This document shows, piece after piece, positions 5,213 through 52,253 of a DNA stretch of 64,000 nt (position 1 is its first letter; each line of letters starts with the position of its first letter). A model generated the notes under the pieces. That model was given only the letters and a program-made list of their open reading frames with translations, was not told where the DNA came from and did no database searches. Source of the DNA: Acidobacteriota bacterium (GTDB taxonomy: Bacteria; Acidobacteriota; Terriglobia; 20CM-2-55-15); the NCBI GenBank assembly GCA_003223875.1, contig QHWY01000109.1, positions 1 to 64,000 on the forward strand. Direction: 5' to 3'. Both the position numbers and the translations under genes were made by a program.

Positions 5213-5320
5213 GGCTTTGCACAAAAAATACATCGTGGGCGCTCATAGAGCGCCCCTACAGTTGCGCACCCCAAGCTGTAGGGGCGGTCTATGACCGCCC
5301 AGGATTTTTTGTGCAAAGCC
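5213..5320 (+). mobile_element. R1 element, copy A (108-bp inverted-repeat element)
   Basis: Ends are inverted repeats GGCTTTGCACAAAAAAT / ATTTTTTGTGCAAAGCC (close to 17 bp). Inside are two short palindromes, GGGCGCTCATAGAGCGCCC and GGGCGGTCTATGACCGCCC, joined by a CTACAG...CTGTAG spacer. The flanks are CATCCGAAG on the left (5204-5212) and CATCCGAAA on the right (5321-5329), an 8-of-9 direct repeat consistent with target duplication. Related copies are at 42040-42147 (inverted) and 52146-52253 (same orientation). There is no coding capacity, so movement would need a transposase from elsewhere. Confidence 0.85.
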
Positions 5321-10633: not shown

Positions 10634-11070
10634 CTCCCCTCCTAAGTTAGGAGGGGAGCCGAGCGAAGCGAGGCGGGGTGGTTCCCATAAGAACCACCCC
10701 GCCTTCGCTCACTTCTTTTTGAGGCTTCGCCCTATCGGGCTCGCGCTTCGCGGTTCGCCAAGCCACCCCTCCTAACTCCTGAGGAACTACGTTTGGGGAG
10801 GCTATTCCCCTCCTCAGCCGAGGAGGGGTGGCTGCGCGGTCAAAAAAGCCGCGAAGCCACCTTAGCCCGCGCAGACGGGGTGGTGTTGGTCAACCCACCG
10901 ATAATTCGATGTTGAACCAACCACCCCGTCCGCCCCATCAAAGGAATGGGACCATTTTCTTGAAGGCGCGGCCACCCCTCCTTTACCAAGGAGGGGAATG
11001 TTGCTCGTTTAAATCTCGTTCCTCTCCTGAAACTGGCCGTGCCCCGGCTACCCGCTTAGGAGGGGAGTTT
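10634..11070. repeat. R2 repeat block (two or more nested palindromic copies)
   Basis: About 437 bp without a credible gene. It is built from repeated motifs in both orientations: CTCCCCTCCTAAGTTAGGAG at the left end, GGGGTGGTTCCCATAAGAAC / AACCACCCCG palindromes, GAGGCTTCGCCCTATCGGGC, GGAGGGGTGGCTGCG, and CTTAGGAGGGGAGTTTAAAT at the right end. The same motifs recur at 19277-19462, 22880-23015 and 44736-44845. The arrangement suggests at least two elements, one inserted beside or into the other. It lies between the PIG-L gene and the BamE-like gene. Confidence 0.8.
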
Positions 11071-17416: not shown

Positions 17417-18433
17417 TTACGGATACTGGTAATAGCCTTTGCGGTGGAGAGTTTTCAGATTATTTCCTGCGATCCTGACCTGAATGCCACGGAAGACCGG
17501 TCCAGGCCCTAGGACTTCGTTATTGGAAACGTAGCCGAGCACATACTGATTGCGTGCCTCTTCGGTAGCTGAAGCGTAGGATCTCTCGATGCTTTGGATC
17601 GAATTCACGAAGTACGCGTCTCCGCCGGTAGTCTTCGCATAATCATCCAGCACGGAGGTCTTGTTGTACGGAAATGGTTGGTCGAGTCCCACAGCATAGA
17701 CTTGCACTCCCGTCTGCAGCAGGCTCTTCGTCGTTTCATCGAAAGAATGATCGTTTCCGTTATTTTGCCCATCGGAAATGACAAGAACAATTTTTCGGCG
17801 GTTCCGTTCACGCTTAGCCAAATCGGATGCGGCTTCAAAGATGGCGTCGTTCAGGACGTTCGTGATCTTTGGCGCTGAGGTGATGACGACGCCTACTTGT
17901 CCGGGAGGTACAACCGGTGCTCCATTGATCACCGGTCCAGGCGTTGAGAACGGGCCGCGAGGAAGGTTCGAGTCGTTGACAGTGCGCGGTTTCACTTCCC
18001 GCAAGGTGTTCATCGATGTTTTCACGCGTTCCGCGTCGGTGGAGAAATCCAGTACCTTCGCGACAAATTTGTCATAGCGGTAAAGAGCCACTTCATCGAA
18101 CTGGCTAAACGCACCCGCCAACGCCGGAAACGTTTGCTGAACTTTGGACAGCGATTCGGTCGGAAGTCCAGTGTCGACGACCACAGCTGCCGAGAGCGGC
18201 ACAGGATCCGTTGTGAAATTCGTTACGGTCTGCTGACGCCCGTTTTCCAAGACGACGAAATCTTCCTTCCTGAGACTCGTGACGAGCGTACCGCCGGCTC
18301 CTTTCACGGTTACAGGAACTACTACCAGATCGACTTTCGCGCGGATCTTAAATTCCTGCGCGTATGCGGCTGCGGCGATGAACAACGCCGTCGCCAGGAA
18401 CGGTTTTGCAGTCTTTCTACCTCCGTGGCGCAT
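17417..18433 (-). CDS. Secreted VWA protein (VWFA-related Acidobacterial type)
   Basis: 338 residues with a signal peptide (KPFLATALFIAAAAYAQEF). It has the layout of the acidobacterial VWA family: a short beta domain with VDLVVVPVTVKGAGGTLVTS and LRKEDFVVLENGRQQ, then a VWA fold (AAVVVDTGLPTESLSKVQ, IVLVISDGQNNG) and a C-terminal SYASATEEARNQYVLGYVS segment. The metal-site motif is degenerate: DTGLP replaces the usual DxSxS seen in its two paralogues. Function is unknown; it is probably a periplasmic or surface protein. The start overlaps the stop of the paralogue at 18417-19547 by 17 bp, so the two are coupled. Confidence 0.85.
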   Translation of the reverse strand: MRHGGRKTAKPFLATALFIAAAAYAQEFKIRAKVDLVVVPVTVKGAGGTLVTSLRKEDFVVLENGRQQTVTNFTTDPVPLSAAVVVDTGLPTESLSKVQQTFPALAGAFSQFDEVALYRYDKFVAKVLDFSTDAERVKTSMNTLREVKPRTVNDSNLPRGPFSTPGPVINGAPVVPPGQVGVVITSAPKITNVLNDAIFEAASDLAKRERNRRKIVLVISDGQNNGNDHSFDETTKSLLQTGVQVYAVGLDQPFPYNKTSVLDDYAKTTGGDAYFVNSIQSIERSYASATEEARNQYVLGYVSNNEVLGPGPVFRGIQVRIAGNNLKTLHRKGYYQYP

Positions 18434-19547
18434 AATACCCTTTCCTTGATTTTACGATATAACCCGGCTGCCGAGCCGTGACCTTGATCTGACGATATTT
18501 GCCGTCTCTCGCGGTATTTAAGGAGAAGTATCCCAGACTGTACTGGCTTCGCAGTTCTTGCGCGATCTGGTCAAAGATTTTCTTAAACGAGTTTTCGCTG
18601 TTGACAACGAATGTAGAACCGCCCGTCTCCTCCGAGAATTTTTTCAGCGTGCGGATGTCGCCGTCGCCGAATCCAGGGAAGCCGCTCCTTCCATGACCAA
18701 AGAACCCGGTAGAGGCGGCATTAGAAATGGCATAGATCACTGCGTTACTCTGGTGCGCCGACAGAAGAGCTTCCGTAAATTTGGTCTTGCTTGTGGTGTC
18801 CTCACCATCACTGATTAAAATGATCGCCTTTCGGCCGGCCTCGTCAGTCAGTTTTTCCTTGCCGGCCAGATACACCGCGTCGTAGATCGAAGTGCCGCCG
18901 CCAATTTCGAGTCCATCGATAGCACGCTTCAGTAACTTCAAATTTTCGGTGTAGTCCTGAACCATTGTCACCGATCGATCGAAGCCAATAACAAGAGCTA
19001 AATCTTTTTCACGCAAAACGGATTCCAAGAAGGAGTTGGCAGTCAATTTCTCTTCATCGAACACCGGCCTGACGCTGGGGCTTGTGTCAATCAACAAAGC
19101 TAGTGTCAAAGGCAATTCGTTTTCCCGCGCGAAATTTCGGATCTCCTGCCGCCGCCCGTCTTCTTCGACCTTAAAATCCTGGGCCGTGAGTCCGGACACG
19201 AATCGGCCATGGCGGTCCGTGACGGAAAATTGCACATTGATGAGGTCGACCGTAACTTTCAGCGTGTCCTCCGATTGCCCTCCTCGCAGGGGAGGGGTGG
19301 CTGCGCCAAGCGAAGCGCAGGCGCAGACGGGGTGGCGCGAAGCGCGAGCCCGATAGGGCGAAGCCTCAATAGAAGCGCGGAGGAATGTTTCGGCCGAACT
19401 GACCACCCCGGCGCGCCAGCCCGCTGGCTGTCGCGCCTCCCCTCCTCTGCGAGGAGGGGAGTAGCCGGCGCTTATTCCGATCGCCAGCAGAATCAGGACG
19501 GCCTTACGCTTCATTGGCGTCATGTTATCATGCCCATTTATATCCAT
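18417..19547 (-). CDS. Secreted VWA protein with an in-frame R2 repeat insertion
   Basis: 376 codons. The mature part (from about residue 92) is a standard acidobacterial VWA protein: VDLINVQFSVTDRHGRFV, GLTAQDFKVEEDGRRQ, an intact DxSxS motif (LIDTSPSVRP), IILISDGEDTTS and LRSQYSLGYFS. The N-terminus has a signal peptide (MKRKAVLILLAIGISAGY), but between it and the mature domain lies about 62 codons of Arg/Ala/Pro-rich sequence (30-91) that is exactly the R2 repeat at 19277-19462. The frame stays open, so a longer protein can be made. The likely start is ATG 19523 or 19514 (MKRKA...), since the first 8-11 residues are not signal-like. Confidence 0.85.
   Translation of the reverse strand: MDINGHDNMTPMKRKAVLILLAIGISAGYSPPRRGGEARQPAGWRAGVVSSAETFLRASIEASPYRARASRHPVCACASLGAATPPLRGGQSEDTLKVTVDLINVQFSVTDRHGRFVSGLTAQDFKVEEDGRRQEIRNFARENELPLTLALLIDTSPSVRPVFDEEKLTANSFLESVLREKDLALVIGFDRSVTMVQDYTENLKLLKRAIDGLEIGGGTSIYDAVYLAGKEKLTDEAGRKAIILISDGEDTTSKTKFTEALLSAHQSNAVIYAISNAASTGFFGHGRSGFPGFGDGDIRTLKKFSEETGGSTFVVNSENSFKKIFDQIAQELRSQYSLGYFSLNTARDGKYRQIKVTARQPGYIVKSRKGYYAPRR
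19277..19462. repeat. R2 repeat copy inside a coding sequence
   Basis: About 186 bp bounded by CCCTCCTCGCAGGGGAGGGG and CTCCCCTCCTCTGCGAGGAG (inverted repeats), with GGGGTGGCGCGAAGCGCGAG and GACCACCCCGGCGCGCCAGC in between. The segment GCGAAGCGCGAGCCCGATAG is shared with the block at 10634-11070. The length is a multiple of three and the minus frame of the VWA gene has no stop in it. Confidence 0.85.
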
Positions 19548-19588: not shown

Positions 19589-20992
19589 ATGTTCAAACTG
19601 ACGAACACCCTGACAGGGGAGCAAGAAGTATTCGAACCGCAGGACAAAGAGACGGTACGAATGTATACCTGCGGGCCAACCGTCTACAACTTCGTGCATA
19701 TCGGCAACTTCCGGACTTTTGTCTTCCAAGACATCCTGAGGCGGCAACTTTCAAGCAAATGGAAGCTAAAGCACGTGATGAACATCACGGACATCGATGA
19801 CAAGATCATCGCCCGCTCGATTGAAACCGGTCAGGACATCAAATCGTATACCGCCGATTACACCGCTGCATTTTTCGAGGACTGCGACCAATTGCGGATT
19901 CAGAAGCCGGAGATCATCGCGCCCGCAACCGAGCATATTGGGGAGATGATCGATTTGGTCAATCGCCTTCTGGCGGCGGGCTACGCTTATCGAGAGGGGG
20001 ATTCGATCTACTATCGCATTTCTCGATTTCCCGCCTATGGGCGCCTCTCCAGGCTAGACAAGAGAGAACTGAAGGTGGGCGCTCGCGTCGAGGCTGACGA
20101 ATACGAAAAAGAGGAGCCGCGGGATTTCGTCCTGTGGAAGGCAGCCAAGGATGCGCGGGAGCCCCGTTGGCCCGCGCCGTTCGGCGAAGGCCGGCCGGGC
20201 TGGCATCTCGAGTGTTCGGCAATGGCGATGAAGTATCTTGGCGATACACTCGATCTTCATTGTGGCGGGATTGATCTTCTCTTTCCGCATCATGAAAACG
20301 AGATCGCCCAGAGCGAGGCTGCGACAGGCCGGCCCTTCGTCCGATTCTGGATTCACGGTGAACATTTGCTTGTCGACGGCGAGAAGATGTCGAAGTCCAA
20401 AGGAAATTTCTATACGCTTCGCGATCTTTTGAACAAGGGTTACGACGCGCTGACGATCCGGTATCTCCTGGTCTCGGTCCGGTACCGCAAACAACTGAAC
20501 TTCACGCTGGAAGGGTTGAAAGAAGCGCAGGCGGCGCTGGATCGCATCAAGGAATTCCTGTTTCGTCTGAGAACCGCAAAGCTTGAGCCAGGCAGCAATG
20601 CGATCCTTGCCGGCTGCTTGGCCAATGCCCGGGAACAATTCGAAGCCGCACTCGACGATGATCTGAACACGTCGGGCGCGCTTGGAGCCATTTTCGTGTT
20701 CATCAGTGAAGCGAATGTCGCGCTCGAACACGGCAGATTGGGGGAGGCGGACCGCATGGAAATCCAAGAGTGGTTTAAAGTTATCGATGCCCGCCTGGGT
20801 ATTGTCCCCGCAATGGAACATCTCGTGCTCGACGACAAACAGGCCGAGCAGATCGAGATGCTGGTCCGACAGCGAAATGAGGCCCGCCGAAACCGGAATT
20901 TCGCGTTATCGGATCAGATTCGCCAGCAATTATTCGATCGCGGCGTAGTCATTGAAGACACGCGGGAGGGCACAAGGTGGCGTCAGAAGTAA
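19589..20992 (+). CDS. cysS: Cysteinyl-tRNA synthetase
   Basis: 467 residues, class I aminoacyl-tRNA synthetase charging tRNA-Cys. Seen: TCGPTVYNFVHIGNFR, where Cys28 is a zinc ligand and HIGN the class I signature; GWHLECSAMAMKYLG and HCGGIDLLFPHHENEIAQ with the remaining zinc ligands; and the KMSKSKGN loop. Length is typical. It is divergent from the VWA pair. Its 3' end overlaps the following aminotransferase gene by 16 bp. Confidence 0.96.
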   Translation: MFKLTNTLTGEQEVFEPQDKETVRMYTCGPTVYNFVHIGNFRTFVFQDILRRQLSSKWKLKHVMNITDIDDKIIARSIETGQDIKSYTADYTAAFFEDCDQLRIQKPEIIAPATEHIGEMIDLVNRLLAAGYAYREGDSIYYRISRFPAYGRLSRLDKRELKVGARVEADEYEKEEPRDFVLWKAAKDAREPRWPAPFGEGRPGWHLECSAMAMKYLGDTLDLHCGGIDLLFPHHENEIAQSEAATGRPFVRFWIHGEHLLVDGEKMSKSKGNFYTLRDLLNKGYDALTIRYLLVSVRYRKQLNFTLEGLKEAQAALDRIKEFLFRLRTAKLEPGSNAILAGCLANAREQFEAALDDDLNTSGALGAIFVFISEANVALEHGRLGEADRMEIQEWFKVIDARLGIVPAMEHLVLDDKQAEQIEMLVRQRNEARRNRNFALSDQIRQQLFDRGVVIEDTREGTRWRQK

Positions 20993-42029: not shown

Positions 42030-42039
42030 CCGGAGGCAG

Positions 42040-42147
42040 GGCTTTGCACAAAAAATCCTGGGCGGTCATAGACCGCCCCTACAGCTTGGGGTGCGCAACT
42101 GTAGGGGCGCTCTATGAGCGCCCACGATGTATTTTTTGTGCAAAGCC
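42040..42147 (-). mobile_element. R1 element, copy B (inverted orientation)
   Basis: 108 bp with ends GGCTTTGCACAAAAAATCCT and ATGTATTTTTTGTGCAAAGCC, in the opposite orientation to copies A and C. The flanks are CCGGAGGCAG at 42030-42039 and again at 42148-42157, a 10-bp exact direct repeat (9 bp if one C belongs to the element). This is strong evidence of insertion. It separates the DUF1185 gene from the enamidase-like gene. Confidence 0.9.
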
Positions 42148-52145: not shown

Positions 52146-52253
52146 GGCTTTGCACAAAAAATACATCGTGGGCGCTCATAGAGCGCCCCTACAGTTGCAC
52201 ACCCCAAGCTGTAGGGGCGGTCTTTGACGGCCCAGGATTTTTTGTGCAAAGCC
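52146..52253 (+). mobile_element. R1 element, copy C
   Basis: 108 bp in the same orientation as copy A, with ends GGCTTTGCACAAAAAATACA and GGATTTTTTGTGCAAAGCC. The target duplication is exact: GTTTGACTC at 52137-52145 and 52254-52262. One internal palindrome is mutated (GGGCGGTCTTTGACGGCCC), suggesting an older copy. Confidence 0.92.

Follow-up and report, generated by a model that had tools for sequence, protein, structure and literature searches.

A dispersed palindromic repeat lies in frame within a VWA-domain protein gene of an Acidobacteriota bacterium

How does a copy of a repeat come to lie within the reading frame of an exported protein, and what does it mean for the gene that carries it? 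The question is raised by a VWA-domain protein gene in the window, the whole stretch of 64,000 nucleotides that was analysed, in which a repeat termed R2 separates the signal peptide from the mature domain. The initial annotation placed the element at 19277-19462 (186 bp, 62 codons). The element itself was recovered; its stated boundary was 3 bp short and is corrected to 19274-19462 (189 bp), which does not affect the frame. The features of the locus are:

18417..19547, minus strand: gene of a VWA-domain protein (TIGR03436), host of R2; start likely ATG 19523 or 19514 (MKRK...)
19463..19514, minus strand: signal peptide MKRKAVLILLAIGISAG(Y), 5' of R2, from sequence reading and orthologue alignment
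19274..19462, minus strand: R2 palindromic element, 189 bp, 63 codons, read as SPPRRGGEARQPAGWRAGVVSSAETFLRASIEASPYRARASRHPVCACASLGAATPPLRGGQ; profile 183.9 bits, model positions 1-188
19439..19462, minus strand: R2 5' terminal inverted repeat, itself a hairpin, ACTCCCCTCCTCGCAGAGGAGGGG; consensus ATTCCCC...
19274..19297, minus strand: R2 3' terminal inverted repeat, CCCCTCCCCTGCGAGGAGGGCAAT; consensus ...GAGGAGGGGAAT
18426..19265, minus strand: mature VWA region, residues 95-374 (TIGR03436, E 5e-70; invariant columns)
17417..18433, minus strand: second VWA-domain gene, conserved neighbour, from profile match and orthologue order
19589..20992, plus strand: cysteinyl-tRNA synthetase-like gene, divergent neighbour, named by sequence reading

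The ORF is open across the whole R2 copy, which splits a codon behind its first base (GGC T/AC TCC ... CAA T/CG GAG), and deleting the 189 bp restores the frame. The host protein matches TIGR03436 with 236.5 bits (cut-off 81.25, profile 2-324 of 324), and the DxSxS metal-site motif, located by invariant columns, is intact as DTSPS. A sequencing indel hiding a frameshift, which the initial annotation had raised, is not required, since the VWA domain matches at 5e-70 in the same frame. The predicted translation of the insert includes the peptides QPAGWR and AGVVSSAETFLR. At the nucleotide level, the two 24-nt arms are 92% complementary and each arm is also a hairpin; as RNA, R2 folds with a stability 5.6 s.d. 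above that of shuffled sequences. In a structure model built on 4 sequences (mean pLDDT 54) the insert is unmodelled, with a pLDDT near 30, and the VWA core reaches 70-84.

In the VWA orthologues of four species from the same genus (G002-G005, 71-77% protein identity) the signal peptide joins DTLKV directly and R2 is absent. The segment is thus very unlikely to be original coding sequence, and the open ORF together with the empty orthologues bears out the earlier description of R2 as a dispersed repeat in frame directly after the signal peptide. The order with the cysS-like neighbour and/or the second VWA gene is kept in the inspected orthologues and in the window. Just 5' of the VWA start, the sequence GGGCATGATAACATG (window 19505-19540) is strongly conserved in several orthologues; it may serve as promoter or operator in the region separating cysS from the VWA gene.

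The ends of R2 were set by alignment of 21 copies, and the profile was then run to obtain copy coordinates. The consensus ends are ATTCCCC...GGGGAAT, with a longer form ATTCCCCTCCTCGCAGAGGAGGGG...CCTCTGCGAGGAGGGGAAT. The window copy deviates from the consensus at its ends (T to C, G to C) and matches the copy in contig C396 of the source genome at 93%. The source genome (G000) is a draft of 6.58 Mb in 489 contigs. The closest relatives that carry a name are metagenome assemblies of Acidobacteria gp5, with the proteins L081 and L082 identical to those of G004 and G003. Its sequence contains the R2 terminal repeat at 188 + 193 = 381 sites (up to 2 mismatches; reversed-pattern control 0), which corresponds to about 190 copies, and 70 full-length copies were found in a sample of 1.7 Mb (26% of the genome). 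R2 is depleted in genes: only 9 of 55 strong copies in 1.53 Mb of longer contigs lie inside ORFs predicted with a purpose-built gene finder, compared to 88% coding DNA in the same contigs. The sampled regions were chosen partly for their R2 content, so the densities are not unbiased. Further copies in the window are:

10635..10752, plus strand: weaker R2-like copy, outside predicted genes, 42.8 bits
10804..10999, minus strand: weaker R2-like copy, outside predicted genes, 36.4 bits
22885..23011, minus strand: weak R2-like copy, outside predicted genes, 22.6 bits

Full-length R2 is present in the source genome and in its relative G001, and only pieces of it occur in other members of the genus, two members of the family and one member of the class; none was detected in the remainder of the 61 genomes surveyed at E 1e-5. 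The genomes compared are drafts. Inspection by eye revealed no constant direct repeat flanking the 21 aligned copies, and the in-frame lengths of 150, 174, 183, 189 and 192 bp fit either no target-site duplication or one of 3n bp. The source genome has four Y1_Tnp genes, none of which has R2 within flanks of about 1.5 kb, and in the search for an autonomous parent none of the 100 inward-facing end pairs of the 1.7 Mb sample was longer than 420 bp. Since neither a transposase nor an autonomous copy was found, it is the dispersal of R2 and its presence and absence at orthologous sites that suggest mobility. R2 has 2.63 open frames compared to 2.24 in shuffled sequences, a value reached by 1 of 100 shuffle sets. 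This openness is only slightly above that given by composition and mostly follows from the GC content of 67%; thus, no special adaptation to coding has to be assumed. In a copy elsewhere in the genome (G000:C396:60253-60440, L002) the R2 3' end GAGGAGGGGAAT plus a G forms a Shine-Dalgarno-like sequence followed by ATG, a possible start of a cytochrome c-like gene.

Counting in-frame insertions elsewhere in the genome, as the initial annotation had proposed, revealed several further cases. R2 is in frame with coding sequence on both sides in the VWA gene, in PriA (150 bp, immediately before the helicase part) and in two exported proteins, in which 174 and 183 bp are placed between the n-region and the hydrophobic core of the signal peptide; all of these are read in one common frame, SPPRRGG. 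Shorter R2 modules are in frame in MurF, a glycosyltransferase (GT2), an MFS transporter and a spermidine synthase-like membrane protein. The modules of MurF and the glycosyltransferase are missing in some orthologues; the MFS transporter and the spermidine synthase-like protein, named by sequence reading, are candidate cases. Every well-supported in-frame full copy has a length divisible by three, which full copies generally do not (25/70), and this difference fits selection after insertion.

Other candidates were rejected or kept apart. The ORF of FolD (G000:C143:32074) crosses R2 but its orthologues begin with MTATFI or MTASFI downstream, so R2 is probably located upstream of the real FolD start. 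The start of a TonB-receptor-like gene (C61:53629) is probably 3' of the repeat, and the N-terminal cases in C396, C334, C358, C304 and C29 were left uncounted because their start codon is uncertain. LigD and the E2 linker were rejected as clean insertions since the orthologue linkers are also long, and are regarded as repeat-filled linkers. The copy at C158:36596 is open on both sides and 128 bp long, no multiple of three, and was kept as uncertain. A uracil-DNA glycosylase-like protein (G000:C61:59944-60027) has a repeat-like N-terminal segment, GEAQARQRAASSDDRP, that is common to three species, G000, G001 and G002 (orthologues L138 and L132).

Comparison across the genus revealed that the same protein sites are filled with different palindromes. 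The PriA linker contains R2 in sense orientation in the source genome and in antisense orientation, at the same codon, in the sister species G001 (L143:1310-1501, 192 bp); the opposite orientation reflects either an independent insertion or an inversion between the end repeats. The PriA linkers of G002, G003 and G004 contain three further palindromes that are unrelated, and the linker of G005 is short. A similar pattern, with different palindromes in different species, was found in the LigD and MurF linkers. Fold z values are about -4 to -16 for the palindromic linkers of PriA, LigD and MurF, and near 0 for short linkers, the MurF R2 module and the glycosyltransferase inserts. All six linker palindromes used as queries have matches elsewhere in their own genomes, with dozens for the families of G004 and G005, fewer for those of G003 and G001 and two or three for G002. 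As a negative control, no palindromes were found in the PriA linkers of scorable relatives from other genera (z -2.6 to +2.5). These sequence comparisons suggest that related species carry different repeats at the same tolerant protein spots and that selfish DNA is repeatedly made into protein.

A palindrome can also be found as part of a leader. In the orthologues of the C166 protein in G001 and G002 (L158, L160) the leader-coding sequence is GCCACAAAAAGGCACAAA...TTTGTGCCTTTTTGTGGC, with one arm read as KRHTNHKKH and the other as FVFFVTFCG. The palindrome thereby accounts for much of the signal peptide: its positive n-region comes from one arm and its hydrophobic core from the complement of that arm. 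Dispersed copies of this family occur in the source genome too (65 arms in 1.7 Mb).

We therefore regard R2 as a non-autonomous palindromic mobile repeat that lies in frame in the VWA gene as tolerated selfish DNA, its distribution being a pattern of survivorship (probability about 0.85). R2 would be a short MITE- or REP-like mobile repeat of one Acidobacteriota lineage, and one copy of it was inserted behind the first base of a codon where the signal peptide meets the mature domain. Because its length is a multiple of three and this copy has no stops in the frame used, the VWA frame survived. The mRNA would then be translated through the hairpin, and signal peptidase would probably cut just before the insert, near ISA/GYS, so that the protein, once exported, would begin with about 60 additional residues, disordered and Arg/Pro/Gly-rich, unless these are trimmed. 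Insertions into coding DNA would generally be purged unless they are in frame, open and within a disordered linker or leader. Translation of the insert itself is predicted from the open frame.

It is also conceivable, but unlikely, that the VWA gene has been inactivated, with the insert blocking export or folding, the ORF open by chance and a pseudogene underway. Positive charges shortly after the signal-peptide cleavage site can hinder Sec export, and the insert places such charges (PPRRGGEAR) soon after the presumed site. Furthermore, the insertion is specific to the source species, so that no long-term conservation attests to function. Against this, the gene has no stop or frameshift anywhere and its metal-site residues are intact, and comparable inserts persist across several species in PriA and MurF, proteins needed by cells. 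Rather improbable, in our view, is an adaptive insert, in which palindromes are a source of linkers and leaders selected for regulation by mRNA hairpins or for altered export. The reuse of the same sites by different families, the palindromic signal peptide of G001 and G002 and the slight excess of open frames would agree with this; however, neutrality also predicts the reuse of permissive sites, the openness is mostly due to GC content, and no conservation of insert residues has been demonstrated. That the segment is a native linker from which the R2 family was later copied is very improbable: the frame is open and the segment proline/arginine-rich as in many linkers, but four orthologues are without it, about 190 copies share both ends with most strong copies outside genes, and the sequence departs from the consensus at its ends as a derived copy would. 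A misjoining of an R2 copy into the VWA gene during assembly, for which the metagenome-style draft with its 489 contigs and many repeats might speak, is just as hard to credit, since both flanks belong to one gene with conserved order and the PriA insertion is present independently in two genomes.

Our reading of R2 as tolerated mobile DNA invites comparison with known systems. According to PMC10969869 (citing Ogata 2000, 2002), Rickettsia palindromic elements are dispersed, about 100-200 bp long, in frame within unrelated genes and divided into several families per lineage. Compared with this description, the likeness that the initial annotation had seen in a different phylum is upheld: R2 is a dispersed palindrome as well, in frame in VWA, PriA, two signal-peptide genes, MurF and GT2. 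It differs from the elements described there in its GC-rich sequence, its ends and its host, an Acidobacteriota bacterium and not one of the Rickettsiales; moreover, full R2 copies are mostly intergenic, and one linker holds different families across one genus. GTAG/CGTC REPs are found in frame in coding genes of several species, many of them in DNA synthesis and repair, and recB of two Xanthomonas species has different REPs at the same site (PMC3733652). The inserts described here in PriA, and possibly those in LigD and a uracil-DNA glycosylase, are similar; however, R2 ends with ATT/AAT without a GTAG or CGTC tag, is longer, has nested hairpins and is not accompanied by the tyrosine transposase linked to GTAG REPs (RAYT, IS200-type), R2 being absent from flanks of about 1.5 kb at the four Y1_Tnp loci. 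R2 thus works like the Rickettsia elements and the intragenic REPs, and we assign it to neither. With MITEs it shares terminal inverted repeats, a high copy number and the lack of a transposase gene, but it has no target-site duplication visible by eye in 21 copies and no autonomous parent in the sampled 26% of the genome. Inverted repeats are also translated within conserved proteins in the mitochondria of Nematomorpha (PMC6649704) and are part of proteins there, as is predicted for R2; those palindromes are not reported as a dispersed mobile family, and the residues encoded by their arms are conserved.

Since in-frame REPs in repair genes and the same-site insertions in recB were reported in PMC3733652, neither idea is new. 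What is new here is the phylum, the repeat families and the sets of orthologous sites in which some are empty and others hold different elements; for Acidobacteriota, the literature searched, which largely excluded subscription papers, contained no earlier description of such elements. In-frame palindromes were once described as unique to Rickettsia, and in-frame REPs were later listed from other bacteria. To these our case adds a phylum of free-living soil bacteria, the presence of several families side by side, and linkers that are empty, filled or differently filled. We tentatively propose, at somewhat less than even odds, that in this Acidobacteriota genus several unrelated palindrome families have entered the same linkers and leaders again and again, in different species, in frame and in either orientation, and that some of them are exapted, as where a palindrome became most of an exported protein's signal peptide. 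If so, palindromes would continually provide free-living bacteria with new protein segments and would be no peculiarity of Rickettsia. The orthologous series amounts to a natural experiment on where proteins accept added sequence and on how repeats are turned into protein.

The window contains other repeats as well. Between 4582 and 5196, repeats such as AAGATTATTTCCGGCGTGGAG recur at distances that are multiples of 21 bp, or 7 codons, and both strands carry small open frames. A 108-nt repeat family distinct from R2 is present at 5213-5320, 42036-42143 and 52146-52253, with two of the copies 97% identical.
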